Positions 2,716 through 20,756 of a stretch of 64,000 nucleotides of DNA are shown here, one piece after another. Below the pieces are notes generated by a model. That model was given only the letters and a program-made list of their open reading frames with translations. It was not told the DNA's origin and did not search any database. The stretch spans positions 1-64,000 of the forward strand of contig NZ_JADKYP010000023.1 of the NCBI RefSeq assembly GCF_015354405.1, written 5' to 3'. The position numbers and the translations under genes are program-made. Within the stretch, counting starts at the first letter, position 1; every line of letters starts with the position of its first letter. Origin of the DNA: Nocardia sp. BSTN01. Its GTDB lineage: Bacteria; Actinomycetota; Actinomycetes; Mycobacteriales; Mycobacteriaceae.

Positions 2716-2771
2716 TCAGTTGAGTCCCGCGTAGCTGTGCAGACCGCTCACCACGATGTTGATGATGAACA
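2716..2771 (-). pseudogene. duplicate 3' end of ccsB (18 codons and stop)
   Basis: Read on the minus strand, this segment encodes FIINIVVSGLHSYAGLN and a TGA stop, identical in protein to the end of CcsB at 19758-20756. Outside the 28-bp core the codons differ (for example the stop is TGA here and TAA there), so the two copies are diverged versions, not a recent duplication. It is either the original chromosomal ccsB end displaced by the element or the ccsB end carried by a second element to the left. Confidence 0.85.
2744..2771. repeat. left attachment core (attL)
   Basis: This is a 28-bp sequence (begins CCGCTCACCACGATG, ends GATGATGAACA) identical to 19786-19813. Identity stops sharply on both sides. 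It encodes part of the CcsB tail on the minus strand. To its right lies element sequence, to its left the duplicated ccsB end. Confidence 0.88.
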
Positions 2772-2873
2772 CCGGTCCTGGCGTTTGTGCTGGTGGACTG
2801 GTTATGGCTCGGTGGCCCTGATCTGGGTTTTCCGGATTGCAGCGTTGGGTGTATCGGGCGCTGGTGGGAACCG

Positions 2874-2895
2874 CTGCGTACTCACTGCGTACCGA
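2874..2895. repeat. left copy of 22-bp putative integrase arm-type site
   Basis: The sequence CTGCGTAC-TCA-CTGCGTAC followed by CGA is repeated exactly at 19676-19697. It lies 102 bp inside the left core, while the other copy lies 88 bp inside the right core. In the excised circle the two copies would flank attP in direct orientation. Each copy itself contains a CTGCGTAC direct repeat with an 11-bp period. Confidence 0.6.
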
Positions 2896-3063
2896 AGCGA
2901 TGTTCTACCCGCCTTGTCGCGAAACCACGTTTGCCCAGTGTAGATGGCGTGTTCCCGCTAGTCGCGACCTGCGACGTCACCGACGGGTCGTATGCTTGGC
3001 CCACCACCGGATAGGCCCGAGTCGAATGTTCGCCCGCCGGCCCCACAGCGACCGGAGAAAATT

Positions 3064-3972
3064 GTGGATAATTCAACTACCGCGACCGTTGTCGCACTCA
3101 TGCGCGACCTACCCAACGGCCTCACGCAGAACACGCTCGGCGAGGTGCTGCTCGACTGCGGTTCGGCCGACGCCGTGTGGGATTCTTACATCGAGGCAAC
3201 CTTGCTGCCAGTTCCAGGCAAGGGCCCTGACCGCGACACCGCAGGCGCCGACATCGAGCAGTGGAAGAGCCGCGGCTGGAAAATCCTCACGGTCCTCGAT
3301 CCCGAATACCCTGACCGGGTCCGGGCCGCTCGACGCCCCCCAGCCCTGCTTATGGCAGCGGGGACGATTGCCGACGACACCCCAGCGGTTGCGATCGTTG
3401 GGTCCCGTAAGGCCTCGGCTCCGGCGCTTGACTTTGCGCGTACCGTCGCCCGCGGTCTTGTCAGCCTTGACGTCACTGTCGTCTCCGGTCTCGCGGAGGG
3501 CATCGACACCGCAGCGATGACCGCAGCCCTTGAGAACGATGGCCGCGTGGTTGGTGTGATCGGCACCGGTTTGGACGTTGCCTACCCAGCCCCCAACCGA
3601 GCACTGCAGGCCGCCGTCGCCGAACACGGCCTGGTACTGACCCAGTTCCTGCCGGGGTTCCGCGGCGCGAGGTGGGCATTCCCGGCGCGCAACCGGACAA
3701 TGAGTGCATTCGCGCAGGTCACCGTGATCGCCGAGGCCACTGAGAAGTCGGGCACCAAGCATCAGGCCTCTGAGGCCGTGGCACATGGCCGTCGGTTGGT
3801 GCTGCACCGCAGCGTTGCTACGACGACGACCTGGGGCCGCGAGCTCGTTGACCGTCCGGATGTTTTCGTGGTCGACACCGCTCATGAGGCGATTGAACAG
3901 TTGGAGAGGATCGCTGCCGCAGACCAGTCACTGCGTGCGCGGCTGTCGGCACTGGCTGGCGGTGGATGGTGA
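3064..3972 (+). CDS. DprA/Smf-like protein (ShosA-like)
   Basis: This 302-residue protein has the DprA Rossmann-like fold: AIVGSRKAS (~103-111), VVSGLAEGIDTAA (~137-149), VIGTGLDVAYPAPN (~162-175) and a terminal AEATEKSGT. DprA loads RecA on single-stranded DNA in housekeeping roles, but this copy is cargo of an element and overlaps a ComF-like phosphoribosyltransferase. That pairing matches the published ShosTA toxin-antitoxin/defence arrangement, in which the DprA-like protein is the antitoxin. I chose the GTG at 3064 because a GGAG site lies 7 nt upstream; an in-frame ATG at 2992 lacks one. Confidence 0.8.
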   Translation: MDNSTTATVVALMRDLPNGLTQNTLGEVLLDCGSADAVWDSYIEATLLPVPGKGPDRDTAGADIEQWKSRGWKILTVLDPEYPDRVRAARRPPALLMAAGTIADDTPAVAIVGSRKASAPALDFARTVARGLVSLDVTVVSGLAEGIDTAAMTAALENDGRVVGVIGTGLDVAYPAPNRALQAAVAEHGLVLTQFLPGFRGARWAFPARNRTMSAFAQVTVIAEATEKSGTKHQASEAVAHGRRLVLHRSVATTTTWGRELVDRPDVFVVDTAHEAIEQLERIAAADQSLRARLSALAGGGW

Positions 3973-4793
3973 CGGACCAAAGCGAGGAGAGCCGCGACTC
4001 GATTCGCATCGGTCTCAGTCGGATTTCCTACTTCCACAACGTCGCGCCCGCGGGGCCGGGGATATGCACCGTATGCAGGCAACCATCGCGGTCCGAGATG
4101 TGCGATAGATGTACGTCCACAAGGGACGCACTGGATGGGTTGACCTGTGATTACACCTTCTTCATGTCGTATACCGACGGGTGGAACCCATCAGGGCGGT
4201 CACAAAGCGCGCAGACGATGCGCCTCTACAAGAGCAGCCAGCCGCCCGCCCGCAGCGTCACTGACGTTCACTTGCTGACGAACATCGTCACGTGGATTCA
4301 CGACGGGTGCATCCGCGATACGGAACTCGGTAAAGAGTGGGATACTGCGACCTATGTTCCGTCACGGACACAGCGAGCGGGACATCATCCGGTTTCCAAA
4401 GTGACGACCAACGTGGCGCGGCTCGTCGGTGATGAGCCCAGTGAGAATAGTGCCCGTCGTATTAGTCGCAAGCGAATCCAGGTCGGCGGGTGTGACGCTC
4501 CGAGAATCGCCGCCGCTGATCGGTTCGCAGTACCCGACCGTGTGCGTCCGAGCATTGAGGGGAAGCGGGTTCTCCTGGTCGATGACATGTGGACCACGGG
4601 CACATCGATGCAGTCGGCAGCGGCCGCGTTGAAGCTCGCGGGTGCCACATCTGTCACCGGGCTCTGTGTTTCGCGATGGCTGGCGTGGAACTGGGAGCCG
4701 CACGTACCGCTACTCGAAAAGGTAACCAAGCAGGCCTACGACCCGTTCTCATGCATCGCGTTCGACCGATGCTGCGACGTACCGCGCGGCTGA
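3966..4793 (+). CDS. ComF-like phosphoribosyltransferase (ShosT-like)
   Basis: This is a 275-residue protein. A CxxC...CxxC zinc-ribbon-like segment (CTVC...CDRC, ~35-51) precedes a type I phosphoribosyltransferase domain with the PRPP-binding loop VLLVDDMWTTGTS (~202-214). It overlaps the DprA-like gene by 7 bp, so translation is probably coupled. In ShosTA the PRTase is the toxin, thought to act on nucleotide metabolism. Assignment to that system is inference from the domain pair; a competence-type ComF role is less likely in this context. Confidence 0.75.
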   Translation: MVTDQSEESRDSIRIGLSRISYFHNVAPAGPGICTVCRQPSRSEMCDRCTSTRDALDGLTCDYTFFMSYTDGWNPSGRSQSAQTMRLYKSSQPPARSVTDVHLLTNIVTWIHDGCIRDTELGKEWDTATYVPSRTQRAGHHPVSKVTTNVARLVGDEPSENSARRISRKRIQVGGCDAPRIAAADRFAVPDRVRPSIEGKRVLLVDDMWTTGTSMQSAAAALKLAGATSVTGLCVSRWLAWNWEPHVPLLEKVTKQAYDPFSCIAFDRCCDVPRG

Positions 4794-5373
4794 CCAATAG
4801 CGCAGGTTCTTTCTGCCCATGGGCGGACAGACCGGACTAAACCTCTCGGTTGCCTTCTGCTCCGGAGGCAGCCCCGGCCGATTTTTCGGGGTCTGACCTG
4901 GGGTGCTGGAGTACCGCGAGCATCCGGTTTTGTATCCCTCGGTCCGCTGGAATCGGCTCGACTTGTGACACTGTGGTGACACCGGCAGAGTGCCGCCGAA
5001 GCTTCCGACAGCGGTATATAGTCTCCTCGGACTTCGGCCGTGAGGAGGTGGTGCCGATGCTGAAGCTCCATTTGCGCACTGCACCGAGGGGCCACCACTT
5101 ACTCGCCTTTTGAGGCGGGTCGAAGCCCTTCGGTTACTTCCTCTGAGCGCCCAGCGGGGTGATCGCGCCGCCGGCCACCGACTGCTCTTCTCCGCCTTTC
5201 TCATACTGGCCGCCCTCGGCGGAAGTCGGGCGTGTCAAGGATGCGCAGCACCGCGTAGCGGACGCCGTAGGTGGTTCTTGACTCGTTCGGCTGGAGCGAG
5301 ACGATTGGGCTATGAGGAAGGTGCCTCCGCAATATCGCTGGGGGCCAGTGCCGTTAGTGGATAGATTCGAGCA
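4794..5373. other. stretch without a recognised gene
   Basis: Apart from the small open frame at 5057-5113, I see no supported gene. A possible -10 hexamer (TATAGT, about 5018) lies upstream of the strong ribosome site at 5043-5048, so transcription may start here for the gene at 5374. Confidence 0.4.
5057..5113 (+). CDS. possible 18-residue leader peptide
   Basis: A near-perfect AGGAGG (5043-5048) stands 8 nt before an ATG that opens an 18-codon frame (MLKLHLRTAPRGHHLLAF) ending in TGA. No longer gene uses this ribosome site. The short basic peptide could be a leader controlling the downstream gene at 5374, or a genuine tiny protein. The evidence is only the site and the short frame. Confidence 0.3.
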   Translation: MLKLHLRTAPRGHHLLAF

Positions 5374-5862
5374 GTGAGAGCAGTGAGCGTGCTGATCGAT
5401 GACATCGATGCGGCGATCGAACGTGTACGGCGAGCCGCCACCCCTGAGGAGATGCGCCGAGCGGTGAAGAACGCGCTCGACGAGTTGTACTCGCTTCGGA
5501 CCCACCGTGAAGGATCCACAAAGCCGCTGAACAAGGCGTACTACCGTCGTGCGGAGGTTGTGCGCGCGGGACAGGTCGCAGAGGGCCTCAGCCTGGTTCG
5601 AGGCACCAAGGCACACGACGCGTTGAAGGACGTCGATCCGTGCGTTCAGCTGCTGTATCCCGGAGGGAATTTGTTTCCGGGCGAGAACACCTTTCCCGGC
5701 CCGCAGCTAGTTTGGCTGAAGCCGGAAGACATGGTCGACCCGCTATCTGATTCGCAGCCGAGACGCGCGTTCTACGAGGACGTTGTGGCCGGACAGCCGG
5801 TGATGGAGACGCTGCTGGAGGCGCGCGACTTCTTGGCATCGGACCCAGGGCCGAGTATCTGA
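5374..5862 (+). CDS. cargo protein of unknown function
   Basis: The 162-residue soluble protein is not recognised. Its N-terminal half is helical and charged (DDIDAAIERVRRAATPEEMRRAVKNALDEL) and its centre is Gly/Pro-rich (YPGGNLFPGENTFPGPQLVWL). It has no signal peptide or membrane segment. Starts at GTG 5374 or GTG 5386 are equally possible, as neither has a strong ribosome site. Confidence 0.6.
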   Translation: MRAVSVLIDDIDAAIERVRRAATPEEMRRAVKNALDELYSLRTHREGSTKPLNKAYYRRAEVVRAGQVAEGLSLVRGTKAHDALKDVDPCVQLLYPGGNLFPGENTFPGPQLVWLKPEDMVDPLSDSQPRRAFYEDVVAGQPVMETLLEARDFLASDPGPSI

Positions 5863-6091
5863 CAGTTCGCCTCCTATCTACTAGATATAAGGCGAATTCG
5901 GCAGCTACCCAACACAAGTTGTGGCGGCGACCCGATGCGGACGGAAGGACCGTCGTCCGCACCGGGTGACCGGTGTCCCGATGTGACCAGCACCGGGGGA
6001 TCGGCCGGAGTCGACGTCGGTGGCGACTCACTCACCGGCGGCGCTGCCGGTGGCCGAAGTAGTGGGGAAGGGGGCTGTAGCCCCCTCCGGG

Positions 6092-6265
6092 TCAGTCGTA
6101 GGCGGCTGCGGAGTCGTAGCTGTCGGCGGCTGCCTGGTTGGCGAGGTCCTGCGCGTGGTGCGGGTGGCAGCGGTAGGTGGTGCGTCCGAATCGGGGCATC
6201 GGGTGGATTTCGGTGGCGGGGGCGTCGCAACCGCGGATTCCGCAGACGGAAGTGGTGGTGCTCAT
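6092..6265 (-). CDS. small His/Cys-rich putative zinc-binding protein
   Basis: This is a 57-residue protein starting MSTTTSVCGIRGCDAPATEIH, with CGIRGC and a later CHPHH, a pattern that could bind one zinc ion. The ATG at 6265 follows an AGGAAGGA ribosome site. It is the only cargo gene on the minus strand left of the repressor. Function unknown. Confidence 0.6.
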   Translation of the reverse strand: MSTTTSVCGIRGCDAPATEIHPMPRFGRTTYRCHPHHAQDLANQAAADSYDSAAAYD

Positions 6266-6842
6266 CGGGAGGTCCTTCCTCGTTGCTGTGGTCGATCTGG
6301 GCTTGTCCAGACCACCGGTGTGGGGTGCGGAAAAGGGTGGGCGAATGCCCATCACGAAGTGACGCGTAGCGCCCTTTGCAGTGCCCTGCGCCGGTGGTAT
6401 GCCTTCGGCAGATCGTCCATAGCAAATGGGAAAGGATCGGTGAGCGCCGAAACCTGCTGGTGCGGAACCGAACTGCGCCGACCCCGGCACCGAGATCCTG
6501 GTGAGCTTCCTCGGATATCCGGCTACCGAGGGCGACCACAGCCGGTCGACTGGGCTGGTGGCCGGCCGATTCGGTCCTCGGCTGCGGGAGGCCCGGCCGG
6601 GTACGGCAGGCGTCGCGCCCAGCACTGCCACGTCGTTGCATGAAGTGGTCAGAGAGGGAAAGTCGGCGTTCTACCACGTCGCCAGAGCGGCGCCGACGCG
6701 CCCGACGCGCCCGCTTGCCGCAGCTTGCGTAGGCGGGCGGTTGCGCGGCGCCGCGTGGCGGCGCCGCTCGGCGGCGCGAAGCGCCGCCCTTGATCCTCTA
6801 TGGCCAAATTCGGCAACCAACGCGAGAGGTCTTCAGGGTGCT
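6266..6842. other. non-coding stretch with very GC-rich repeats
   Basis: No supported gene. From 6695 to 6788 the sequence is a dense cluster of GC-rich direct and inverted repeats, listed separately. Either side of the cluster base composition is ordinary for the window. Confidence 0.5.
6695..6788. repeat. GC-rich repeat cluster with hairpins
   Basis: GACGCGCCC occurs twice in tandem (6695-6712). The 10-bp palindrome GCGGCGCCGC occurs twice (6745-6754 and 6758-6767) three bases apart. GGCGGCGC and GCGCCGCC (6770-6777, 6781-6788) form a perfect 8-bp stem with a GAA loop. This could be a strong terminator, a cis-acting transfer locus (clt) or a replication structure of the element. No T-tract follows the hairpin. 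Confidence 0.5.
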
Positions 6843-7595
6843 ATGGCGCTGTCTTCGCACGAGGCGGCTGCATCGTGGCAGAGGCCGTCGGGCGAGGTGT
6901 CAGGCATCGTCCGGCGGCGGCTCAAGGAATCCCGTTGTGACGCTTGGATGTTCATGGGTGCGGTCTTGGATGTTCTGCGCGACCTGGGGCGGCAATGTGT
7001 GTACTTTGTTTGTATGCCGAGGGAAGCGTCGCAGGAGAAGGGTCGGGTCGGGGCCCGAACAGCCCAACGTTGGCTTGAGGCAACGACGTTCGTTGAACTG
7101 CCGTGGAACTCGTACCATCATGAGGCCTTATGCGAAATCGAGTGTCTTGACGACTCGACGAAGATGTTTGATCTAGCGGGATACTTCCTCACTGACGAAC
7201 GCACTCCGATATCGGTCGAGGTGAAGAATGTCGATACTGATGCGCATCTCCGGGATAAGTTTCACGAGTTCCTAGCCGTAGCGTACAGCTCGACAGCGAA
7301 GAGAAAATTAAAGTCTAGACCCGATGATAAGCGGGAATTCATGTGGGTTTCATGGCACCCATTCGGGCCAATGAATCGATGGACGAAGTTGGCCTCGGTT
7401 GAGGAAATTGAAATCTCTCTGGGTGAGTACTCAGGTCTTCTGAATGGCCACGAAGTAGATCGGGAATTGCTTCAGGTCGTGTCAGAAAGAATTTGGGTGC
7501 TTACCTTCAATCCGAAACAAGAGATGCTTAGTCTCGATGCGGATGATCTGAGTAAGGTAATGGCGGCTCTGCCAAGAAAGAGGACGACGCTGTGA
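6843..7595 (+). CDS. putative PD-(D/E)xK-type nuclease, first gene of a two-gene cassette
   Basis: This 250-residue protein is of no recognised family. The segment MFDLAGYFLTDERTPISVEVKN has an Asp about 17 residues before an E-x-K (EVK), flanked by an upstream helix containing acidic residues, as in PD-(D/E)xK nuclease folds. The next gene overlaps by GTGA. Codon use is more AT-rich than in the backbone genes, which suggests separate acquisition. The start is uncertain: ATG 6843 or ATG 7015, neither with a good ribosome site. The nuclease reading is inference from the motif. Confidence 0.55.
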   Translation: MALSSHEAAASWQRPSGEVSGIVRRRLKESRCDAWMFMGAVLDVLRDLGRQCVYFVCMPREASQEKGRVGARTAQRWLEATTFVELPWNSYHHEALCEIECLDDSTKMFDLAGYFLTDERTPISVEVKNVDTDAHLRDKFHEFLAVAYSSTAKRKLKSRPDDKREFMWVSWHPFGPMNRWTKLASVEEIEISLGEYSGLLNGHEVDRELLQVVSERIWVLTFNPKQEMLSLDADDLSKVMAALPRKRTTL

Positions 7596-9028
7596 CGTTC
7601 ACTTCATCACTCCGCGAGGCGATGGACACCACAGATGGCCTCGCCTATATCGAACGCGTGAAGACTGTCGTACGAAACCAGATTCAACGACTCGACAATA
7701 CCGCCAGGATTGAAGACACTCAATATTATAATCATAGTGCTATACCGGATTTCGTCGTCACTTGGCCCGGTGAGCGCGGCGAGCGGCGAATCTATTTGCG
7801 AGATTCCTATAGCTCAATTGCTGCGGGTGATGATGAGCGATACCTAGGAAAGTTCGAACCAGTTCTACTGGCTCTCGATAATGACGACTCCCGGCGCGGG
7901 ATTGGCGATCCGGTAGGAAGTTCTGCGCGAACCGTGTCGCCCCGCACATTGGTAACTGATGCGGAAGCGGTGGAGATTATTTCCGGGGAGGATAACACTG
8001 CCTCGGCGGAGTCTCCCATTAATAGTCTTGTACGCGCCAATTTCGTCCGGGGAGGAAAGGGGCACATCGACCACGACCGTGCGGAGCTATTGGTAGACGG
8101 CCGCGCGGATAATTCCGCTGGGATCGACGCGATCGCGGATATAATTGCCGATAGCTTCGTTGAAGATGCGGCGTTACGCATAACTCGCACTGCACAGTTG
8201 ATCGATTTCGCGATGAACGGCCCGGGGGCTGGCCGGGAGATCCAGTCCGTAGCGGCAGGAAAGTTGTCGTTGGCGGAAATTAGGCATCTGTTGCCGTGGC
8301 TATTGTCCCAACCTGCTGCGTCGGAGAACTATGTATTCTGGCGCTTCATCGGTAATCTAATGACCTTCGATGAACTCGAACTTATCCGTGAGGACATCGC
8401 CGGCATGGACATCTCACCGTTAATTTGGGCGAACTCTGACGTGTGGGAAGCGAAATGGGCGTACCTAGGCGTATCCCGTATCGTCGATGAGCAGTCAGGA
8501 CCCAATCCGTCTTTATTCCGTTGGTCGTTCGACTCCGGCAGGCTGAGTGTTGATATCGGCGGCGATCAGCGAGTTCTGATAGCGAGAAACGGTAAGCTCA
8601 TCCGTGCCCGCGAAGGGCGTTCCTCTGCGGCTTGGGACGATCTTCAGGCGCCGCTGTCAGCCTATCGCCTTGCTCGGGTTGTTCTCCGTGGGATTCGACG
8701 TTCTGTCTCGATAGACGCTGTCGAGAGCCCCGACGTGCGGAGCGACGTTGAGGACGTCGCCAACTCGCTGGAGGATCGATACTACGTCACTGAGGCTACC
8801 CTTAGGGTTCCGTCAAGTACCTCGGAAGATGGTCAGACGGACCTCGTAGTAGATTTTGGCGGAAGCATAATTCGAGCCAAAGATAGTGCTTCCATCCGGG
8901 ATTTGATTACCGTCGCATCGCAAGTGTTGAATTACCGTTCGCCGGTTGATTCGGCAACGCTCAATCAAATACTTGGTGCATCGAATTCTGGTGTGAGTGA
9001 ATCTGACGAGGATGGGGCACAAGATTGA
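7592..9028 (+). CDS. large protein of unknown function, second gene of the cassette
   Basis: The 478-residue soluble protein is not recognised. Near the N-terminus, YYNHSAIPDFVVTW followed by ERRIYLRDSY resembles the beta-hairpin core of PD-(D/E)xK folds but lacks an obvious E-x-K, so it may be a degenerate nuclease-like or recognition domain. The rest is mixed alpha/beta, with helical repeats around 200-290. GTG 7592 overlaps the stop of the nuclease-like gene, so the two products are probably made together. AT-rich patches (for example near 7721-7745) set it apart from the backbone. Confidence 0.65.
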   Translation: MTFTSSLREAMDTTDGLAYIERVKTVVRNQIQRLDNTARIEDTQYYNHSAIPDFVVTWPGERGERRIYLRDSYSSIAAGDDERYLGKFEPVLLALDNDDSRRGIGDPVGSSARTVSPRTLVTDAEAVEIISGEDNTASAESPINSLVRANFVRGGKGHIDHDRAELLVDGRADNSAGIDAIADIIADSFVEDAALRITRTAQLIDFAMNGPGAGREIQSVAAGKLSLAEIRHLLPWLLSQPAASENYVFWRFIGNLMTFDELELIREDIAGMDISPLIWANSDVWEAKWAYLGVSRIVDEQSGPNPSLFRWSFDSGRLSVDIGGDQRVLIARNGKLIRAREGRSSAAWDDLQAPLSAYRLARVVLRGIRRSVSIDAVESPDVRSDVEDVANSLEDRYYVTEATLRVPSSTSEDGQTDLVVDFGGSIIRAKDSASIRDLITVASQVLNYRSPVDSATLNQILGASNSGVSESDEDGAQD

Positions 9029-9527
9029 GTAGAGGGGCCAAGTTCGTCCGGGACGGGGTGCGGCTGTCGATCTGAGGCAACCAGACAGGCTGGGCGTTCG
9101 TCTCACCTTGTATGGACAGTAGACAACGGCGCGCAGTAGCAGACCGATGGACTCAGGCGAGGATGCGTAACCTTTTGGCGCGGGTCTATGGGCAGCCGCA
9201 ATTGGCTCGGCGAGATCGGTTGCGACAGAACAAAAACGGTCCGAACTAGCTGGCAACTGTATTGGGTCAGCTTCGTCGGGTCCTGTCGAGTGGTGCCTTA
9301 CCGACCGGGCGTCGCATCGCCGAGGGTGGGGTGTTGTCGCAGTCGGCGAGCTGATAGGCGGCTCCTTACAGCCTCCGAACTGATGATGTGTGCTCACTCG
9401 TCTCTCGCATGGACGCCCGGATGCACCACAATGCAACAGCATCCGATGCTGCGCCGAGATGGCGACCAAGCGCTGCGTTCATCGGAACCGCTCGCGAAAA
9501 CGGCCGTCTCCCGCGAGACTTGATGTC
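9029..9527. other. intergenic stretch with nothing recognised
   Basis: I see no supported gene, repeat or hairpin between the two-gene cassette and the methyltransferase-like gene. Short open frames here lack ribosome sites and family features. Confidence 0.5.
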
Positions 9528-10364
9528 ATGGCTGAGCTTGCGCTGACGGCGGACCGTCGTGAAGAACTGGCCGGATTGCTGGGAGACGAAGAGCGGTTGC
9601 GGTTCGAGTATCCGAGGGTGGCGGAGTACCTCGATACCGCTCCGATGCTGTCGGGTACGGGAGACGACCGGGCAGACGCCGCGTTCGACCTGCGGTTCGT
9701 CCACTACATGACGGGCGGGCCGTCGATCAGTGCGAATCCGTACTGGGACATCGTCGGGCCATCGGTGTCCGACCATGAGGGCCGACGTGTGGTGAACGGT
9801 GGCCGGCCTCAGGGGAGTGCGCGACTGGGGTTCGCGCAGACGATCTTGCAGGCGACCTACGCCTACGCGATTCCGTCCCCAGAAACCATCACTTGGCTGC
9901 GAGAATTCTGCGATGGGCGCCCGATGGCTGAGCTTGGTGCGGGCCGCGGCTACTGGGCGGCACAGTTGACGGACGCCGGTCTGAATGTTGCGGCGTACGA
10001 CTCGGAACCGCCGGACCGGACGGAGAACCCATCGTTTGTGCAGGCGACGGGGCAAGCGGATGTGTGGCTGAGCGTCGGCGATCTCGGCGAATTCGCCGCT
10101 CGTGGTGTCGGCCGAGCCGATGAGGTCCTGTTCCTTTGCTGGCCACCTGGGTGGGGCAATGCGATGGCGTCGGACGCGCTGGCAGCCTTCGAAGCCAACG
10201 GAGGCCGACGGTTGGTCTACATTGGCGAGCCCAAAGGTGGAAAGACTGGCAATGACGCCTTCTTCGATGCGCTGAACTCTCGGTGGGAACTTGAATCGGA
10301 AGATTCGGAATTCGTGTCGTGGTGGAATCTCTCGGACCGGGCACAAGGCTGGGTCCGTCGATAA
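9528..10364 (+). CDS. SAM-dependent methyltransferase-like protein
   Basis: This 278-residue protein has a class I methyltransferase motif I, MAELGAGRGYWAAQL (~129-143), followed by VAAYDSEPP with an acidic residue at the end of strand 2. No DNA-methyltransferase NPPY/DPPY motif is present; LCWPPGWG (~203-210) stands near the expected motif IV position. Target unknown. The ATG at 9528 has only a weak ribosome site. It converges on the GntR gene across a strong terminator. Confidence 0.65.
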   Translation: MAELALTADRREELAGLLGDEERLRFEYPRVAEYLDTAPMLSGTGDDRADAAFDLRFVHYMTGGPSISANPYWDIVGPSVSDHEGRRVVNGGRPQGSARLGFAQTILQATYAYAIPSPETITWLREFCDGRPMAELGAGRGYWAAQLTDAGLNVAAYDSEPPDRTENPSFVQATGQADVWLSVGDLGEFAARGVGRADEVLFLCWPPGWGNAMASDALAAFEANGGRRLVYIGEPKGGKTGNDAFFDALNSRWELESEDSEFVSWWNLSDRAQGWVRR

Positions 10365-10368
10365 AAAG

Positions 10369-10407: not shown

Positions 10408-10416
10408 TCTAATGTC

Positions 10417-11109: not shown

Positions 11110-11172
11110 CGGGATCATTCCCTTCAATTCGAAAAATCACTACGAGTAGGACTCGGGACTAGTGTAGCGCAC

Positions 11173-11184: not shown

Positions 11185-11220
11185 AAGAAGTGTTTGGGTT
11201 AGTCGGCCGAGGGGAAACAT

Positions 11221-13288: not shown

Positions 13289-13293
13289 TCTGC

Positions 13294-13596
13294 TTGGAAA
13301 CCAGTCTCAATGGCGCTGTGGCCGTGGGCGCTACGGCTCTCGGTGCAACCGCGGTCGCGTTCGGTGTGGCCGGGCTTCTGGCCTTCGGTCCGCGTCACGA
13401 CGTGGCTCCGGCCGCTGTCGAACACTCCACCGGCAAACCGGGGTGCGTCATGTTCTGCGACGAACCCGCACCCGCCGCCCCGGATTCCCACGGCTGCATC
13501 CTGTTCTGTTCCGAGCCGAGCTTGCCCTCGGCCAATGAGCAGGGCTGCCAACTGTTTTGCGAACTCGAAACCTCGAAAGGGGAGTACCCGCGATGA
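13294..13596 (+). CDS. small membrane protein with three GCxxFC repeats
   Basis: This is a 100-residue protein from a TTG start. A membrane helix (~8-31, VAVGATALGATAVAFGVAGLLAF) is followed by an outward or lumenal tail with three spaced repeats: GCVMFC, GCILFC and GCQLFC. The repeat is regular (about 22 residues apart). Paired cysteines could form disulfides or bind metal. It is probably a spread/transfer accessory protein; no family is recognised. Confidence 0.65.
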   Translation: METSLNGAVAVGATALGATAVAFGVAGLLAFGPRHDVAPAAVEHSTGKPGCVMFCDEPAPAAPDSHGCILFCSEPSLPSANEQGCQLFCELETSKGEYPR

Positions 13597-13982
13597 GCGA
13601 CGACAACGTGAGTGAAGACATGGTGATGCAGCAGGCCCAGGGCTACTGGGTCTCCTACCGCGAATACGAATCGGTGCACTACCGGATGCCCGGTGCCCCG
13701 GACGGATACGGGCGTGCTGCGGTGAGGTACAACAGCCCGCTCGCTCAGGAAGGCTGGATCTTCATCACCTTCGGCGGCCCGGATGAGCACTTCTCCGGTG
13801 GTCCGTACCCGGATCTGTCGATGCCGCCCGAGGTCGCTGCCGCGTTGATCGGCCAACTGAGGGCTGCGGTCACCGAAGCGCAGATCGCCAACGGCGAAGA
13901 CCTCGAACCGTTCCCGTACGTCGACGTGACAGCCGATCCGTGCCCGTGCGACATGTGCGTCTACTACCGGGAGCTGCCATGA
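13593..13982 (+). CDS. conserved AICE backbone protein of unknown function
   Basis: This is a 129-residue soluble protein (MSDDNVSEDMVMQQAQGYWVSYREYESVHYRMPGAPDGYGRAAVRYN...). A GGGGAG ribosome site precedes the ATG, and the stop overlaps the ATG of the translocase gene (ATGA). A C-terminal CPCDMC could bind metal. The coupling implies a role in transfer. Confidence 0.65.
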   Translation: MSDDNVSEDMVMQQAQGYWVSYREYESVHYRMPGAPDGYGRAAVRYNSPLAQEGWIFITFGGPDEHFSGGPYPDLSMPPEVAAALIGQLRAAVTEAQIANGEDLEPFPYVDVTADPCPCDMCVYYRELP

Positions 13983-15328
13983 GCGTCGTGAACATGGTCC
14001 CGGTCGCGGTGTCTGCGGCAAGTGCGCTGGTGTTCGCGGCGTACATCCTGCCGTGGGGCCGCCGCCCCGCCACCAGCACCGCGCAAGGTCTGGCACGGGA
14101 TCTGGAAGAGTCGCCGGAAGCGCTGCGGCCTGCGGTGTTGTCGTTCGCTTCGACCACCCACGCACAGCTGATGTTCTCAGACCTCAAACTCGGCTCCCCG
14201 GAGATCGGCTATCCGCGGGTGGAGTGGTGGGACTTCTCCCGTCACGGACTGACCGTCGACCTGCTGATGCGGGGCGGACAAACCCTCTCGGACTGGTCCA
14301 ACGACGAAATGCGTTCCCGCATAGCCGATTACGTCGGCGTAGACCGAGTCATCGCATCGTCACCGGCTCCGGGTTGGGTGCGTCTGGAACTGCGGGTGCG
14401 TGACACCCTCGCCGAAGCGGTCGTGACCAACATCGACACCGGCACCGTCACGGCTGCGGGTGTGGATCTGGAAGCGGTTCCGGCGGGTGTGCGTGAAGAC
14501 GGCACTCCATGGCTGCTGCGGATCCTCTACTCGCACATCCTGATCGCCGGTGCCACCGGTTCCGGTAAGGGCTCGGTGCTCTGGTCGATTTTGGCCGGCC
14601 TCGGTCCCGCGATCAAAGCCGGGTTCGTGGACGTGTGGCTCGCTGACCCGAAAGGCGGTGTCGAGTTCGGCGTCGGCGAAAATAAGCTGTTCGTCCGCTT
14701 CGCCACCGACGCCCCGACCATCCTCGGGGTGCTGGAAGAGGCCGTGCAGGTGATGCAGGAGCGTCAGGCCCGGATGCGTGCTGCCGGTCTGCGCAAGCTG
14801 GTGCCGTCGAAGAATGAGCCGCTGATCCTGCTCATCATCGACGAAGCCGCGGCGCTGTCGTCGTACGCCGAACGCGAGGAACAGGAAACGTTCCGCCGCA
14901 AGACCGGCATGTTGCAGTCCCAGGGCCGCGCGGTCGGGGTCTCGGTGATCGCCGCTGTACAGGACCCCTCCAAGGAGGTCATGCCCAACCGGCAACTGTT
15001 CCCCACCCGCATCGGTCTGCGGCTGGAAGAACCGACACAGATCGCCATGATCCACGGCCAGGGCGCCAGGGATCGAGGCGCGCTGTGTGACGAGATTCCG
15101 GAGGAAACCCCGGGTGTCGGCTACGTCGGCGAAGACGGCAAGAAGGGCTTCGTTCGGGTCCGCGCGTTCTGGATCACCGATGAGCAGACCAAGGAGATTG
15201 TCGAACGCTATTCTCCGGCCGCCGAGGTCGACTTCGCCCCGACCCAGGACTACAGCGATTTCGACCCCGACGACCTGGGCGACGACGACATCCCCGGTGA
15301 CGGCTACACGGGACCGGTGGCGGCATGA
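13979..15328 (+). CDS. FtsK/SpoIIIE-type DNA translocase (TraSA-like)
   Basis: This 449-residue protein has one N-terminal membrane helix (~7-25), Walker A GATGSGKGS (~191-199) and Walker B LILLIIDEAA (~282-291), then the VIAAVQDP and FPTRIGLRL motifs typical of Tra translocases of actinobacterial conjugative elements. In this family one hexameric pump moves double-stranded DNA between hyphae, unlike relaxase-based conjugation. It overlaps both neighbours by 4 bp. Confidence 0.9.
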   Translation: MSVVNMVPVAVSAASALVFAAYILPWGRRPATSTAQGLARDLEESPEALRPAVLSFASTTHAQLMFSDLKLGSPEIGYPRVEWWDFSRHGLTVDLLMRGGQTLSDWSNDEMRSRIADYVGVDRVIASSPAPGWVRLELRVRDTLAEAVVTNIDTGTVTAAGVDLEAVPAGVREDGTPWLLRILYSHILIAGATGSGKGSVLWSILAGLGPAIKAGFVDVWLADPKGGVEFGVGENKLFVRFATDAPTILGVLEEAVQVMQERQARMRAAGLRKLVPSKNEPLILLIIDEAAALSSYAEREEQETFRRKTGMLQSQGRAVGVSVIAAVQDPSKEVMPNRQLFPTRIGLRLEEPTQIAMIHGQGARDRGALCDEIPEETPGVGYVGEDGKKGFVRVRAFWITDEQTKEIVERYSPAAEVDFAPTQDYSDFDPDDLGDDDIPGDGYTGPVAA

Positions 15329-15609
15329 AACGCGGACTCGTCACTGAAAACCACGTGGTCATCTACTGCGATTCCTGCGGCGACCTCTACACCGATGCTG
15401 CCGGGGAAGCGGTCTGCTTCACCTCCACCCATCACGCCGCCTACTACCTCGCTGGCGGCCGTAACGGCTGGCTCTACGACGGTGACCGCATCACCTGCGA
15501 CGGCTGCGCGATCACCGCCGAATGCGACCTAAACGGCCACGACTTCGTTCCGCCGGCCGAATCCGTAACCGCCCGCTGCGTCCGCTGCGGTGCACCCGAC
15601 AACGAGTAG
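15325..15609 (+). CDS. zinc-ribbon-like AICE protein
   Basis: This is a 94-residue protein with three cysteine pairs (YCDSCGD, CDGCAITAEC, CVRCG) and HH in the middle, likely binding one or two zinc ions. Its ATG overlaps the stop of the translocase gene. Function unknown. Confidence 0.7.
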   Translation: MKRGLVTENHVVIYCDSCGDLYTDAAGEAVCFTSTHHAAYYLAGGRNGWLYDGDRITCDGCAITAECDLNGHDFVPPAESVTARCVRCGAPDNE

Positions 15610-15621
15610 GAGACGCCCGAA

Positions 15622-15795
15622 ATGAGCGAGCACACCGACGAATACGCCGACGTCATCGACCTGCACAGCCGTCGCCGCTGCCAGCTCGAAGCCCGCGGAT
15701 TGGACCCGATCGGTATCGCGGTGAACATCCTCGCCGAGACCGGCACGGCGTTCGGGCACGGCTACGACCCTGACGGAGGGGACTGGGCAGCATGA
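15622..15795 (+). CDS. small AICE protein, 57 residues
   Basis: This is a short soluble protein (MSEHTDEYADVIDLHSRRR...). A GTAGGAGA ribosome site lies 9 nt before the ATG, and its stop overlaps the next ATG as ATGA. It sits in an unbroken run of coupled backbone genes, which is the main support. Function unknown. Confidence 0.65.
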   Translation: MSEHTDEYADVIDLHSRRRCQLEARGLDPIGIAVNILAETGTAFGHGYDPDGGDWAA

Positions 15796-15950
15796 GCACC
15801 AAACACGGGGCGCCACAGGTGAATCCGATTGTGCAGGCGGCAGCGGATCGAGTGCGCAAGTCCAAGCGCCGCAAGGCCAAAGACCTCCCCGCCAACTGGG
15901 AGCGCCCCGGACAGACGGGGTTGTTCGACGAATCCGAGGTGAAGCAGTGA
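15792..15950 (+). CDS. small basic AICE protein, 52 residues
   Basis: This is a basic protein (VRKSKRRKAKDLPANWERPGQ) coupled by ATGA to the gene before and by GTGA to the gene after. It could contact DNA. No family is recognised. Confidence 0.6.
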   Translation: MSTKHGAPQVNPIVQAAADRVRKSKRRKAKDLPANWERPGQTGLFDESEVKQ

Positions 15951-16624
15951 GCACCACCTCCACCAGAACCACCACCACGATCAAGTCCCGACGTGACCCG
16001 GTAGAAGACGTCTTGACGCTGTTCCTGGCCGTGATCGGCTGGGCAGTGATCTCGGCGTTCCTCGCGGCCTGGTGGGCGGTGCTGTTCCCGATGGTCTCGC
16101 TGCCCATCGCTGCGGTGGCCGGCCTTTTCTGGTTCTACGGATGGATCCCGGCCCTCGGCATGGCATTGGCTTCGGCCGCTGGGCTGGTGCTGTGGCGAGT
16201 GAAGGCCCCGGAGTCGTTCTCGCGCTTCGTTTCTCGTCGCGCCCGCTCCCGGTTCCTGTCCTGGTTCCGGTACCGGCGGCAATGGTCGGCACGGTTGGAC
16301 GACTGCAACCTATCGGCCCGCGACGACCTGGGCCAGACGGTGAAGATTCCGCGGCTTCTGGGTATCGAGATTGGGGAGGCCACCGACACCGTGCGGGCGG
16401 CGATGCTGCCGGGCCAGTGCCCCGACGACTGGGCCAACCGCACCGCCCATCTGGCCCATGCGTTTGGGGCCGAGGAATGCCGCGTCAGCATCACCGGCCC
16501 AGCTCGGGTGCAACTGGTGTTCCGGCGCGCTGATTCGCTCGCCAAGCCGATTCTGGCCCCGTTCCCACACATCCCCGGCGGCTTGGGAGGACCGCCCCGC
16601 CAGGAGGACGACAACGCCGCGTGA
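15947..16624 (+). CDS. membrane protein, probable transfer component
   Basis: This is a 225-residue protein with two to three membrane helices between ~22 and 83 (LTLFLAVIGWAVISAFLAAWWAVLF; LPIAAVAGLFWFYGWIPALGMALASAAGLVLW) and a soluble C-terminal domain (IEIGEATDTVRAAMLPGQCPDDWANRTAHLAHAFGAEECRV). That layout resembles the N-terminal part of Tra/FtsK proteins, so it may work with the separate translocase at 13979. Confidence 0.6.
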   Translation: MSTTSTRTTTTIKSRRDPVEDVLTLFLAVIGWAVISAFLAAWWAVLFPMVSLPIAAVAGLFWFYGWIPALGMALASAAGLVLWRVKAPESFSRFVSRRARSRFLSWFRYRRQWSARLDDCNLSARDDLGQTVKIPRLLGIEIGEATDTVRAAMLPGQCPDDWANRTAHLAHAFGAEECRVSITGPARVQLVFRRADSLAKPILAPFPHIPGGLGGPPRQEDDNAA

Positions 16625-16656
16625 CAACCACCACCACTGATGAGGGAGGCCAGACC

Positions 16657-18324
16657 ATGACAGACCAACAGCCTGACACCGATCCGGCCTCCCTCGGCCC
16701 CGTTCGGGAGACGGCAGCGGATCGGCGTTCGATGCCGAGCATGTACGACATCGCTCAGGCGGCGGCCGACAAACACGGGGAGTGCCGCCGACCGATCCCG
16801 ATGTACAGCTATGACCCCGATACGGGGGAATCGAAATACGTTGGCGCACCATGCAAATCGACGCTGGACAGTGTGTGCCCCTCGTGCGCGTCTCGGGCTC
16901 GCGCCCTGCGGATGCAGCAAGCCCACGAAGGCTGGCACATCGAACAAGAACCTGTCGACATCACCCGCGACCCCACCGAACGACAACTCGAACTGGTCGA
17001 GACTCGCGCGCGTTTGATGGACAACTACCAGGAAGCCAAGGCTCGCGACGACGACGAAGCAATGGCCGGTATCCGTGAGGTTGTTGCGGATCTGGATGCG
17101 GAGTTGCGGGAGACCGGTGTGCGCGGGCGTCTTCCGGCGCTGGACCCTGCACCGAAATCGGAGCGCAAACGATCGACCCGCCGCCGCCAGGACGTCCCGG
17201 ATCTGCCTCGCAAGAAGATCGACAAGACAACGATCGGGCGGCAGTACGCGGGCAAATACCGGCCGTCAACGTTCGCTACGGTCACCTGCGACACCTACGG
17301 GCCGGTCAATCTGGACGGGTCGCCGGTCAACCCGGACTCCTACGACTACCGTCGCGCTGCGCGTGACATCGTCTTCTGGCCTGCACTATTCGACCGGTTC
17401 GTACAGAACTACCGGCGTGCGACCGGTCGCGATATCCAATACTTCGCCACCGTGGAACCCCAGCGCCGGGGCGCCCCACACATTCACATGGCCATCCGCG
17501 GCACCGACCCCAAATCGCTGATTCGGCAAATCGTCGCCGCGACCTATCACCAGGTGTGGTGGCCGCACTTCGACCCGGAAAACGAGCAGTACACCGATGG
17601 ACACATGCCTGTCTGGGACTACGCCGCCGGCCGATTCGTCGACCCGGACACCGCCGAACCGCTTCCGCTGTGGGACGAAGCAATGGACATGCTCGACACC
17701 GTCGACGACCTCGAACCAGCGCACGTGGTGAAGTTCGGTCGACAGGTCGACGTGCAAGGTGTGCTCGGCGGCACCGAGGAAGCCTCCCGCCACGTCGGCT
17801 ACCTGACCAAATACCTCACCAAGTCCATCGCTGAGGTCATCGAGCCTCGAACCGACCGTGCCGCAACGCATTACGACCGGCTACACGCAGAACTCCAGAA
17901 AACTCCGTGCTCGCCGAACTGTCCTATCTGGCTGCGCTACGGCATCGCACCCAAGGGCGCCAGCGAGAAGACACAGCCGGGCCGCTGCAAGGGCAAAGCC
18001 CACCGCCGCGAAACCCTCGGTCTGCGCGGTCGTCGCGTCCTGGTGTCGCGGCGATGGACCGGTAAGACGCTTCCCGACCACAAGGCCGACCGCGCCGAGT
18101 TTGTTCGGCAAATCCTCGCCTCGGTCGGCATTCAGAAACCGGATACGTCCCGGCTGATCGTGAAACCGGTCGAGCCCGGAGACAAGAACGTGCCACCGCG
18201 AGAGCACCTGATCATGGCCTCGATCGCGCAGCGGATCAAATGGCGCGCCCAATACGAAACCGCCCGCCTGGAATCCAGTCCACCAGGCGAGCAACAACAT
18301 TCGGCAATCCAACCGGCAGCATAG
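16657..18324 (+). CDS. RepSA-like rolling-circle replication initiator
   Basis: This 555-residue protein has an HUH motif in VEPQRRGAPHIHMAIRG (His-Ile-His ~273) and a later HVGYLTKYLTKS (~378) that probably holds the catalytic tyrosine. The N-terminus contains CRRP...CKSTLDSVCPSC, a likely zinc finger. In pSAM2, RepSA nicks and replicates the excised circle. I chose ATG 16657 because GAGGGAGG stands 8 nt upstream; GTG 16621 overlaps the previous stop and is an alternative. Confidence 0.9.
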   Translation: MTDQQPDTDPASLGPVRETAADRRSMPSMYDIAQAAADKHGECRRPIPMYSYDPDTGESKYVGAPCKSTLDSVCPSCASRARALRMQQAHEGWHIEQEPVDITRDPTERQLELVETRARLMDNYQEAKARDDDEAMAGIREVVADLDAELRETGVRGRLPALDPAPKSERKRSTRRRQDVPDLPRKKIDKTTIGRQYAGKYRPSTFATVTCDTYGPVNLDGSPVNPDSYDYRRAARDIVFWPALFDRFVQNYRRATGRDIQYFATVEPQRRGAPHIHMAIRGTDPKSLIRQIVAATYHQVWWPHFDPENEQYTDGHMPVWDYAAGRFVDPDTAEPLPLWDEAMDMLDTVDDLEPAHVVKFGRQVDVQGVLGGTEEASRHVGYLTKYLTKSIAEVIEPRTDRAATHYDRLHAELQKTPCSPNCPIWLRYGIAPKGASEKTQPGRCKGKAHRRETLGLRGRRVLVSRRWTGKTLPDHKADRAEFVRQILASVGIQKPDTSRLIVKPVEPGDKNVPPREHLIMASIAQRIKWRAQYETARLESSPPGEQQHSAIQPAA

Positions 18325-18334
18325 GGAGGAACAG

Positions 18335-18544
18335 ATGGATACCAACGGGCAGGAAACGTACCTGAGGGCCAAGGACTGCGAAGCTCTGACCGGCATCCCT
18401 GAGGCCACCTGGCGGTGGTGGGCGCACGTCGGTAAAGGACCGGCCAGCTTCAAGCTCGGGGCTCGTCGTCGCGTCTGGCGTAAGTCGGTGATCTTGGCGT
18501 GGATCGCGGAGCAGGAGGCCGAAAGCCTCGGTGATGCTGCGTGA
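18335..18544 (+). CDS. xis: excisionase (Xis)
   Basis: This is a 69-residue MerR/HTH_17-type DNA-binding protein (YLRAKDCEALTGIPEATWRWWAHVGKGPASFKLGARRRVWRKSVILAWI), the usual form of AICE excisionases. It lies between rep and int, and its stop overlaps the GTG of int, as in pSAM2. Xis bends the arm DNA to direct Int towards excision. Confidence 0.85.
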   Translation: MDTNGQETYLRAKDCEALTGIPEATWRWWAHVGKGPASFKLGARRRVWRKSVILAWIAEQEAESLGDAA

Positions 18545-19761
18545 CCGTGAAGCGCAATCGCCGCGCGGGAGTTGAAGACCTGTGGACCAAGGAAGTCCTC
18601 GACGAGAACAAGAAGGCTCACCGGGTGCCCTCGAAGTTGCACGGGAAGGGCAAGCGTTGGCGAGCTCGCTACGTCGATGATGCCGGCAATGAGCACACGA
18701 AGCGCTTCGCTCGGAAAGCGGACGCGCAAGCCTGGCTCGATGCGCAGGTCGCGAGTTTGGTCCAGGGCATTCACGTTGCACCGCGCGACTCTCAAAAGAC
18801 CGTAGAGCAGTGGGCAAACGAGTGGCTGAAGGGGTACGCAAACCACCGCGAAACGACAGTGGAGCTGGCAACCTGGCACGTCAAGAAGATCAACGAAGGG
18901 TTGGGGTCGCTGCAATTGTCGGCGGTGCGGCCGTCCACGGTGAAGAAGTGGATGGTGGCGCTCAAGGACGAGGGCCTGGCCGACAGCTACGTCTACAGCC
19001 TGCATTCTCGATTGGCTCAGATCCTCGGGGACGCAATGCACGACGGGCTGTTGGCACGCAATCCGTGTTCGCGCCGTACGTCGCCGAAGACTGGGCAGCA
19101 GAAGGTCTATGTAGCGACCTCCGAGCAGGTCTGGGCACTGCATGATGCGATGCCGGCACATCTTCGCGTGGCGGTACTGCTCGGCGCGTTCGTGGGTCTT
19201 CGAATCTCGGAGGCTGCTGGACTGCGGACCGCCGATGTCGATTTCGCCAACGGCATCGTGCAACCTCGCCAGCAGTGGCCCGCACGAGAGTTGAAGACGG
19301 AGTCAAGCACAAAGCCTGTGCCGATTCCGCCGGAACTCGTCGCGATGCTCGAAGAGTCGGCCAAGGTGTTCCCTGGTGATCATCTGGTCTGTGATGAATT
19401 CGGCAAGCCGGTCTCGCCGTGGGTGATCGGGTGGAATCTGCGGGCAGCGAAGGAGAAAGTTCACGACCTGCCCGAGGCGTTCAGCTTCCAGGACTTCCGG
19501 CACTTCTACGCATCTTTGCTCATCCGCCGAGGTGCCGATATTAAGGCCGTCCAGGCTCGCCTACGCCACGGCAGCGCCATCACGACTCTGCGGTACTACG
19601 CCCATCTCTGGCCCGATGCCGACGAGACAACGCGTACCGCGGTTGGTGCCACGATCAAGGATTGGCCCGGTTCCACTGCGTACTCACTGCGTACCGAGAC
19701 GGAGGAGACGGACTCTACCGATGACCAAGACGGCGAGAATGCGCAGGCAGAAGCCGTTTAG
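18541..19761 (+). CDS. int: tyrosine integrase
   Basis: This 406-residue protein has an N-terminal arm-binding region, a SAM-like core-binding domain (~90-180) and a catalytic domain with R221 (GLRISE), H321 (DFRHFYAS), H343 (LRHGS) and probable nucleophile Y353 (YYAHL). The GTG start overlaps the xis stop. Its 3' end overlaps the convergent ccsB stop by 4 bp and carries one copy of the arm-type repeat, so int, arm site and attachment core form one compact module. Confidence 0.95.
   Translation: MTVKRNRRAGVEDLWTKEVLDENKKAHRVPSKLHGKGKRWRARYVDDAGNEHTKRFARKADAQAWLDAQVASLVQGIHVAPRDSQKTVEQWANEWLKGYANHRETTVELATWHVKKINEGLGSLQLSAVRPSTVKKWMVALKDEGLADSYVYSLHSRLAQILGDAMHDGLLARNPCSRRTSPKTGQQKVYVATSEQVWALHDAMPAHLRVAVLLGAFVGLRISEAAGLRTADVDFANGIVQPRQQWPARELKTESSTKPVPIPPELVAMLEESAKVFPGDHLVCDEFGKPVSPWVIGWNLRAAKEKVHDLPEAFSFQDFRHFYASLLIRRGADIKAVQARLRHGSAITTLRYYAHLWPDADETTRTAVGATIKDWPGSTAYSLRTETEETDSTDDQDGENAQAEAV
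19676..19697. repeat. right copy of 22-bp putative integrase arm-type site
   Basis: Identical to 2874-2895 and in the same orientation. It lies inside the int coding sequence (encoding TAYSLRTE), 88 bp from the right attachment core. Confidence 0.6.
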
Positions 19762-20756
19762 TTGAGCCCCGCGTATGAGTGCAACCCGCTCACCACGATG
19801 TTGATGATGAACAAGTTGAACAGCATCGCGACGAAGCCGGCCACGTTGATCCAGGCGGCCTTGGTTTCACGCCAGCCGGAGGTGGCGCGGGCGTGCAGGT
19901 AGGCGGCGTAGATGACCCATGCGATGAAGGAGACGGTTTCCTTCGGGTCCCAGCCCCAGAAGCGGCCCCACGCGCTTTCGGCCCAGATGGCGCCGAGGAT
20001 GATGCCGGTGCCGAAGAGGGGGAAGGCCACGACCGTCGTGCGGTAGGCGAGGCGGTCGAGGGTGCGGGCGTCGGGCAGGCGGCGGGCGAGGGCGCCGAGC
20101 GGGTTGCTCGATTCCTGACCGTCCGGCTGGTACATGCGCAGCAGGAACAACAGGCTCGCCACACCGGACAGCATGAAGATGCCGCTGCCGATGCTGACGA
20201 TGGTGACGTGGATGGGCAGCCAGTACGACTTCAGCGCCGGAACCACGGGCGCGGCGTCGGCGTAGAGCACCTGGCCGGCCAGGAACATCAGGATCAGCAC
20301 CGGGACCAGCAGGAAGACCCACATCGCGCGGTACCGGCGATCGTGGATGAACACCAGGCCGGTGACCATCGCGGCCGCGGTCGCCATGGTGATGAACTCG
20401 TACATGTTGCCGAGCGGGAAGCGATGGGTCGCGAAGCCGCGCAACACGATCGAGGCCAGATGCAGGCCGATCGCGACGAAGACGACCGCGAACGCCATAT
20501 TGCCCAGCTGCTCGGCCAGCGAACGCTTCGGCGTGGGCTCCAGCTTGCCGGGGACGATCGGCCGGTCGGCGCGCACGCCACCGGAGGCGCCGACGCCGAC
20601 CAGTTCGCGCTCACGCTCTTGGGCGCTGGTCACCTTCTTCTTCGCGGAGGCGTACTGCACGATCAGCATCGCCAGCACCAGCAGGTAGACGACGAACGCC
20701 GTCTTGAAGGCGAGATTGCTGTAACCGGCGAGTGTTTCGTCGATCGGCATGTTCAC
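19758..20756 (-). CDS. ccsB: cytochrome c biogenesis protein CcsB (heme handling, System II)
   Basis: This 332-residue polytopic membrane protein has the heme-binding tryptophan-rich motif WGWDPKETVSFIAWVIYAAYLHARAT and conserved histidines of the CcsA/CcsB family. With ResB it delivers and attaches heme to apocytochrome c outside the membrane. The start overlaps the resB stop by 4 bp. The last ~9 codons come from the integrated element, yet the protein end (IVVSGLHSYAGLN) equals that encoded by the displaced copy at 2716, so function should be intact. Confidence 0.95.
   Translation of the reverse strand: MNMPIDETLAGYSNLAFKTAFVVYLLVLAMLIVQYASAKKKVTSAQERERELVGVGASGGVRADRPIVPGKLEPTPKRSLAEQLGNMAFAVVFVAIGLHLASIVLRGFATHRFPLGNMYEFITMATAAAMVTGLVFIHDRRYRAMWVFLLVPVLILMFLAGQVLYADAAPVVPALKSYWLPIHVTIVSIGSGIFMLSGVASLLFLLRMYQPDGQESSNPLGALARRLPDARTLDRLAYRTTVVAFPLFGTGIILGAIWAESAWGRFWGWDPKETVSFIAWVIYAAYLHARATSGWRETKAAWINVAGFVAMLFNLFIINIVVSGLHSYAGLN
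19786..19813. repeat. right attachment core (attR)
   Basis: This is the second copy of the 28-bp core. To its left (19758-19785) lies element DNA that supplies the last codons and stop of ccsB. To its right the body of chromosomal ccsB continues. Confidence 0.88.

Follow-up and report, generated by a model that had tools for sequence, protein, structure and literature searches.

Actinomycete integrative and conjugative elements (AICEs) of the pSAM2 type, the closest described systems, combine a RepSA replication protein, an FtsK-type translocase and a terminal excisionase-integrase (Xis-Int) pair with an attachment (att) site overlapping the 3' end of a host gene (PMC3218068; statements on this and other papers refer to the portions of their text that were available). 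AICEs with a tyrosine integrase reside mostly in tRNA genes, the pSLS subfamily excepted (Ghinet 2011, PMC3218068). The element described in this work has the same gene set and att arrangement but a protein-coding target: it occupies 17 kb (positions 2744-19813) of a chromosomal stretch of Nocardia sp. BSTN01 (contig NZ_JADKYP010000023.1, positions 1 to 64,000; the whole 64,000-nt stretch is hereafter the window) and is integrated in the 3' end of ccsB.

Coding genes have been reported as targets before. In a Streptomyces population, 14 insertions were found in protein-coding genes, 36 in tRNA genes and one in an intergenic region, and AICEs in conserved coding genes such as rlmN change site when the integrase is exchanged (PMC9513070). 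The rlmN repeats measure 11 nt (PMC9513070), whereas the Nocardia element carries a 54-nt gene tail that restores the reading frame. The actinobacterial element PAISt of Streptomyces turgidiscabies likewise lies at the 3' end of a coding gene, bacA, although its site is an 8-bp palindrome, unlike that of the ccsB element (PMC4057263). In the TIGER/Islander resource, integration into coding sequences accounts for 43.4% of genomic islands (PMC12424338). Since integration of this kind is common for islands and known for AICEs, the principle is already established. A preliminary description of this DNA had contrasted the element with tRNA-borne AICEs; protein-coding targets are less unusual than it implied (14 against 36 insertions, PMC9513070). 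Integration at ccsB or glnA was undescribed in the titles and abstract beginnings of the matches listed, a scope that leaves out supplements, subscription papers and the TIGER/Islander database, and in the available text glnA or glutamine synthetase had no occurrence in PMC12424338, PMC8190616, PMC7478629 and PMC10654092, nor rnpB in PMC10654092. None of the literature so covered showed ccsB as a target, glnA and rnpB being used repeatedly by a single integrase family whose arm sites are alike, or tail restoration that had been measured.

Attachment sites of the ccsB element

The element is bounded by a 54-nt direct repeat of the ccsB 3' end (89% identity, spacing 17042 nt); read along ccsB, its leading 28 nt match exactly between copies (minus-strand sequence TGTTCATCATCAACATCGTGGTGAGCGG; coordinates in the table). 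The preliminary description had placed these 28-bp cores correctly in the last ccsB codons, and the repeat runs 26 nt further toward the ccsB stop. With up to 3 mismatches, the core pattern matched just two places in the 7.8-Mb genome, the two repeat copies themselves, and a control pattern had no match in any of 151 genomes of the genus. The int and ccsB frames share 4 nt at their stops (19758-19761), also as first described, and a consensus scan found no terminator between the two genes. A tRNA target was considered and rejected, as ARAGORN detected no tRNA in the window and none in 28 int loci of the genus with their 1.5-kb flanks.

Both tail copies encode FIINIVVSGLHSYAGLN followed by a stop codon. 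Counted from TTC through the stop (18 codons), the copies differ at 7 bases, each of them synonymous if the stop-to-stop change (TAA in the int-side copy, TGA in the distal copy) is counted as such; the element's own ccsB end with other codons, another stop and the same protein tail had been noted from the start. Among 10 tail pairs in the genus, 59 of 60 nucleotide differences were synonymous (stop-to-stop included), against 22% expected for random single changes, and the sole exception (TTC to TCC in the first core codon of G011; G and L numbers are our handles for genomes and loci) lies in the distal copy, on the side not translated as ccsB. Phage 21 and e14 in icd of E. coli also bring a synonymous 3' end of their target, although these are phage-derived and differ in host and target.

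Tail copies also agreed in amino acids (first residue excluded) in 10 of 10 pairs, including the variants IVV, IVI and MVI and a final N, T or S. Shuffled pairs gave a mean of 2.8 such matches and reached ten in 7 of 200,000 shuffles; as shuffling ignores the kinship of hosts and elements, this matching of tail to host is suggestive only. The agreement was greatest at the 5' side, where own pairs differed by a mean of 0.4 over the first 26 nt (other pairs, 2.0), with 5.6 against 6.9 over the last 28 nt. Positions variable among hosts yet matching within pairs were confined to a 7-nt span, SGTGRTS. Seven nucleotides is the usual overlap size of tyrosine recombinases, and the span may be the overlap, where attP and attB would have to be the same; against this reading counts one base of the span that differs between the G132 copies.

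Two copies of CTGCGTAC, 11 bp apart, lie near each end of the window element as putative arm-type integrase sites. On the int side, an exact pair with this spacing occurs 52-85 nt past the ccsB stop, within or just past the int 3' end, in 10 of the 11 ccsB elements detected in the genus; of the 10 elements having a distal core, 9 show an exact pair on that side too, at 112-115 nt from it, and 8 carry exact pairs at both ends. The exceptions were G083, whose nearer distal motif is altered, leaving the exact one at 124 nt, and G121, with one altered and one exact int-side motif. Repeated motifs flanking a core at near-fixed spacing are what would be expected of an arm/core tyrosine integrase system, and the layout is that of lambda-like attP.

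Occupied and empty ccsB sites in Nocardia

The genus census covered 151 genomes, one per species, with an int threshold of E<=1e-60. The ccsB gene itself was present in all 151 and int in 24: 11 beside ccsB, where the preliminary description had suggested looking for such integrases, 10 beside glnA only and 3 without assigned target. One of the 11 ccsB hosts (G132) holds a glnA copy as well. A distal tail copy was found in 10 of the 11 ccsB elements, the eleventh (G099) being interrupted by a contig end, and int was broken in two of them, G099 and G121 (a 1.9-kb remnant). The core pattern was detected in 132 genomes, and in the other 19 the ccsB end presumably differs too much to match it. Same-strand core pairs no more than 20 kb apart occurred in 15 genomes, corresponding to the 10 elements, to three decayed copies (G004, G125 and G026, with int scraps, both cores and an arm motif near each end) and to two other cases (G069, G145). 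RepSA and FtsK accompany the integrase in 4 of the 11 ccsB elements (the window element, G083, G063 and G128), while in G087, G041, G051, G011 and G132 they were undetected and Int and the Xis-like protein alone were matched (Xis 41-71%), which indicates that the integration module serves different kinds of element.

The integration claimed in the preliminary description was borne out not only by the paired tails but also by an uninterrupted ccsB locus in a related genome. When joined at the core, the window flanks aligned unbroken to L062 (G071) over 2451 nt at 94.4%, whereas the occupied form ended at the ccsB end; a shorter test gave 1501 nt at 93.5%. L062 alone spanned this junction among 29 compared ccsB loci, which were picked by closeness to the window and not to other hosts, and two of which (L058, L072) are occupied. 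The joined flanks of G083 aligned over about 1500 nt, at 93.6-96.5%, to five of the 29 (L056, L057, L060, L061 and L063). Downstream of ccsB these five loci carry a different gene with an HHCLTDG motif, which we take to be wax-ester-synthase-like; the host flank of the site thus varies among close species.

Divergences of integrase and host gene did not run in parallel, which speaks for horizontal movement. In G063 and G128 the integrases are 85% identical to that of the window where the host ccsB is 72.6-74% identical, and in G087 the integrase is 68% identical where ccsB is 84% identical. The integrases of the window genome (G000) and G083 are 98% identical and their host flanks differ.

Which of the two tails belongs to the element depends on where strands are exchanged. 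Were the crossover at the extreme 3' end, the translated tail would still be that of the host and the element would merely carry a useless ccsB fragment at its distal end. Taken by itself, the window pair would allow either copy to be the host's, and the tail of the empty relative (TTGCACTC..) is partly like the proximal copy, though it ends in TGA as the distal copy does. The distal tail of G083, however, is identical through the stop codon to the tail of the element-free loci L057 and L063, with a near-identical flank, and is therefore host-owned, so that the proximal, translated tail belongs to the element; moreover, 59 synonymous differences in 60 are unlikely for an untranslated fragment. 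An exchange at the extreme 3' end is accordingly very improbable, and the G083 tails, together with the non-synonymous base in the distal copy of G011, place the exchange inside the 5' block.

Even less credit is due to a single ancient insertion, inherited vertically in Nocardia and now immobile. The copies with broken int (G121, G099) or int scraps (G004, G125, G026) would suit it, but it is contradicted by the patchy presence (11 of 151 genomes), by the different host flanks beside the closely related elements of G000 and G083, by the disagreement between int and ccsB divergences and by the empty sites of close relatives. A tandem duplication of the ccsB 3' end, between whose copies unrelated genes were inserted later, may have a counterpart in G145, where a second partial copy is present at a distance of 0.5 kb, and neither an arm motif nor an int was found with it; given the arm motifs at near-fixed spacing on both sides in all 10 two-core elements and the uninterrupted empty-site alignments, we regard this origin as the least probable, with hardly any chance of being correct.

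An integrating element that brings its own ccsB tail would operate as follows. Its attP would consist of the tail copy with paired arm-type sites on each side, and strand exchange would occur within the conserved block TTCATCATCAACATSGTGRTSAGCGG, at a crossover point that we infer to lie there. After insertion, the translated part 3' of the exchange would be the element's, so that the last ccsB codons would be supplied by the element. Because this part belongs to the element, its protein sequence would be kept under selection, presumably for CcsB function, with codons and stop free to drift. Renewed excision would be expected from Xis and Int, and a part in replication and transfer from RepSA and FtsK.

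Sister integrases and their targets

A wider sample of 401 genomes of the family, from 31 genera, searched at the same threshold, yielded 26 genomes with the integrase in 10 genera. Of the 21 outside the genus, 13 are beside glnA, one beside ccsB (G181, L126), four beside rnpB and three beside other genes: one encodes a zincin-like protein, another a DUF4185 protein, and the third is a truncated sigma-factor frame. Among close sister integrases, glnA is the commonest target. Of 26 named loci, 7 lie at ccsB and 5, two of them from Mycobacterium, at glnA. Nine adjoin a tRNA that ARAGORN recognised, one (L104) has a flank that looks tRNA-like by eye, and the other four are elsewhere, without assigned target or at a contig end. 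Loci without assigned target were L022, L024/L095, L027 and L128 (second G157 copy). Homologous integrases therefore do not all lie at tRNA genes, as they might have done had the preliminary description been mistaken: glnA, rnpB and ccsB sites occur as well.

A distal copy of the glnA 3' end (18-31 nt) was present in 12 of the 18 glnA elements examined, not counting L164, whose apparent distal match is arm sequence rather than core; 10 of these 12 carry arm motifs at both ends, of a looser form (GTNSGCAG, no T at third place). At four loci (L133-L136, in G382, G473, G388 and G333) the integrase lies beside the 3' end of rnpB, the RNase P RNA gene (Rfam RF00010). In three of these four elements the rnpB 3' end recurs distally and arm pairs are present at each end, one of the distal copies being weak (24 nt, 92%, E 4e-4). 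A likeness between the ccsB core (ACATCG.GGTG) and the glnA core (ACTTCGACGTG) was seen by eye alone and is not claimed.

In G132, contig 5 holds a second glnA-type copy with an identical int (L031/L166) in another frame, which now ends in QFELYYDV and a stop; it occupies perhaps a secondary site, and no second exact core was found in the 20-kb stretch searched. In Rhodococcus sp. IEGM 1379 (L097/L138; G347), a sister integrase lies beside a truncated sigma-70 region 2 frame. Because the frame is truncated, the target gene may not be restored there.

A tree of 56 integrases was built with IQ-TREE and rooted at the midpoint, leaving out L101, which lies at a contig end, L097, whose site and int end are those of L138, the fragmentary-int loci L026-L029 and L032, the further G025 copies L030, L033 and L035, and named loci already included under another id; L104 was scored as tRNA by flank reading, ARAGORN having found no tRNA there. 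The ccsB integrases (10 rows) formed one clade (100/99) with a single change in all 200 bootstrap trees, and rnpB (4 rows) and tRNA (10 rows) one clade each (100/100). The glnA label needed 5 changes, 4 of them forced by well-supported branches; when 8 rows with other or unassigned targets were dropped, the four labels needed 3 changes, the minimum possible. A set of 22 rows (98/95) was the smallest with good support to include both the ccsB clade and glnA rows. The ccsB clade lies nested among glnA integrases, as a single target switch would produce, and a direction from glnA to ccsB is probably the simplest reading of the tree.

Several observations weigh against the explanation developed here. 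RepSA and FtsK were undetected in five ccsB elements whose int is intact, so conjugation is not common to all of the ccsB group. For the remaining 8 two-core elements, none of the 29 compared loci was an empty-site relative spanning the junction. Further exact arm motifs lie inside G000 (one), G083 (one), G041 (a pair) and G132 (one, opposite strand), and core bases differ between copies in G083 (1), G132 (1) and G011 (2). Six of the 18 glnA elements had no distal copy within 18.6-18.8 kb, and L126, at ccsB in another genus, carries CTGCATAC/CTGCATAT-like motifs and no exact arm motif, its distal end being off the contig. In the tree, support for the Nocardia glnA and ccsB clades being sisters is weak (87/21), rooting was at the midpoint, L126 forms a long branch and the program warned of long branches meeting.

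All considered, we hold with strong confidence that the best explanation is an integrating element with its own ccsB tail and arm sites, in a family whose members target the 3' ends of conserved genes (tRNA, rnpB, glnA, ccsB), with ccsB specificity probably acquired once from the glnA type. In this acquisition the core would have changed while arms and spacing stayed alike, probably once and from glnA-type ancestors. A broader proposal, plausible though we would not yet favour it, is that one actinobacterial integrase family keeps arms and attP geometry constant while its core jumps among tRNA, rnpB, glnA and ccsB 3' ends, with elements tuned to the host ccsB allele through SGTGRTS; as the core equals the target tail every time, gaining the tail of a host gene would be the step that changes specificity.

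Gene content of the window element and its significance

From the int end, the gene order is integrase, Xis-like protein, RepSA, a 225-aa protein, FtsK-type translocase and DUF2637 protein, the last of which we take to be Spd-like. The preliminary description had called the element a pSAM2-type AICE, and a terminal integrase beside att, RepSA, the FtsK/SpoIIIE translocase, direct repeats and an empty-site relative are found together. By its gene content as read from sequence, the element is an AICE with a pSAM2-type replication protein. The best matches of the integrase among solved structures were 6en0 (Int protein, 1.1e-13) and integrase, XerA and XerD entries. The FtsK-type protein scored 33.9 bits against the plasmid TraB equivalog NF041214 (cut-off 800), and the 225-aa protein had no match in family, HMM and phrog profile searches. 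A search of plasmid records for the excised form returned a single match, a 2.66-Mb N. farcinica record that covers 4% of the query, at 75%.

Most of 9518-19812 is common to G083 at 82-86% identity, and the variable genes lie toward the left end, where 2898-6537 and 6820-9517 are unmatched in G083, the closest sister, and in G063. A cargo pair in this region (2992-4793), absent from G083, resembles ShosTA/PsyrTA toxin-antitoxin defence pairs. Two adjoining cargo frames (6501-9028) had no family match in profile, PADLOC and phrog searches; a PDB search with the 478-aa product gave no match, and its homologues in the genus are 26-30% identical.

Features of the ccsB element and its target in the window
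Feature	Positions	Strand	Basis
ccsB, cytochrome c biogenesis system II, target gene	19758-20756	-	TIGR03144 equivalog, 250.9 bits (cut-off 187.6); PF01578
Int-proximal att site, translated ccsB tail copy, stop TAA; 3' part probably element-owned	19760-19813	-	
Distal att site, original host ccsB tail (stop TGA) fused to element left end	2718-2771	-	
28-nt identical core, proximal copy	19786-19813	-	
28-nt identical core, distal copy	2744-2771	-	
Putative arm-type Int sites, two CTGCGTAC 11 bp apart, inside int 3' end	19673-19697	+	repeat D3; same or similar motif in related elements
Putative arm-type Int sites, other arm, two CTGCGTAC 11 bp apart, ~113 nt from distal core	2871-2895	+	repeat D3
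Tyrosine integrase, 406 aa	18541-19761	+	PF00589 9.4e-17; phrog_1 2.2e-59
Excisionase-like HTH protein, 69 aa	18335-18544	+	HTH_17 and AlpA, both under curated cut-off; phrog_66 excisionase 5.2e-6
RepSA replication initiator, 567 aa	16621-18324	+	PF20199 1e-107, 361.5 bits (cut-off 34)
225-aa protein common to three sister AICEs	15947-16624	+	tblastn 40-71% in G083, G063, G128
FtsK/SpoIIIE-type translocase, 462 aa, TraB/TraSA-like	13940-15328	+	PF01580 2e-14, 54 bits (cut-off 24)
DUF2637 protein	12674-13288	+	PF10935 8.9e-14
324-aa protein common to three sister AICEs	9390-10364	+	phrog_19090 1.1e-27 (function unknown); tblastn 62-83%
Cargo ORF, 478 aa	7592-9028	+	weak homologues in 4 of other 150 genus genomes
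Cargo ORF, 364 aa	6501-7595	+	DNA of start common to G083 and G063, remainder not
Cargo phosphoribosyltransferase-domain protein, ShosT/PsyrT-like	3966-4793	+	PF00156 2.8e-8; PADLOC ShosT 1.3e-7
Cargo DprA/SLOG protein, ShosA/PsyrA-like	2992-3972	+	PF02481 4.3e-52; PADLOC ShosA 2.5e-57

Target change by integrases is, in our judgement, difficult to study unless close before-and-after pairs are available. Here the core differs between glnA and ccsB although arms, spacing and much of the integrase are held in common, within one genus and even within one genome (G132). The ccsB, glnA and rnpB 3' ends can be added to mapping tools as recurrent attachment sites in Nocardia and relatives, and the almost exclusively synonymous tails amount to a natural experiment indicating selection on such elements for restoring the protein of the host.

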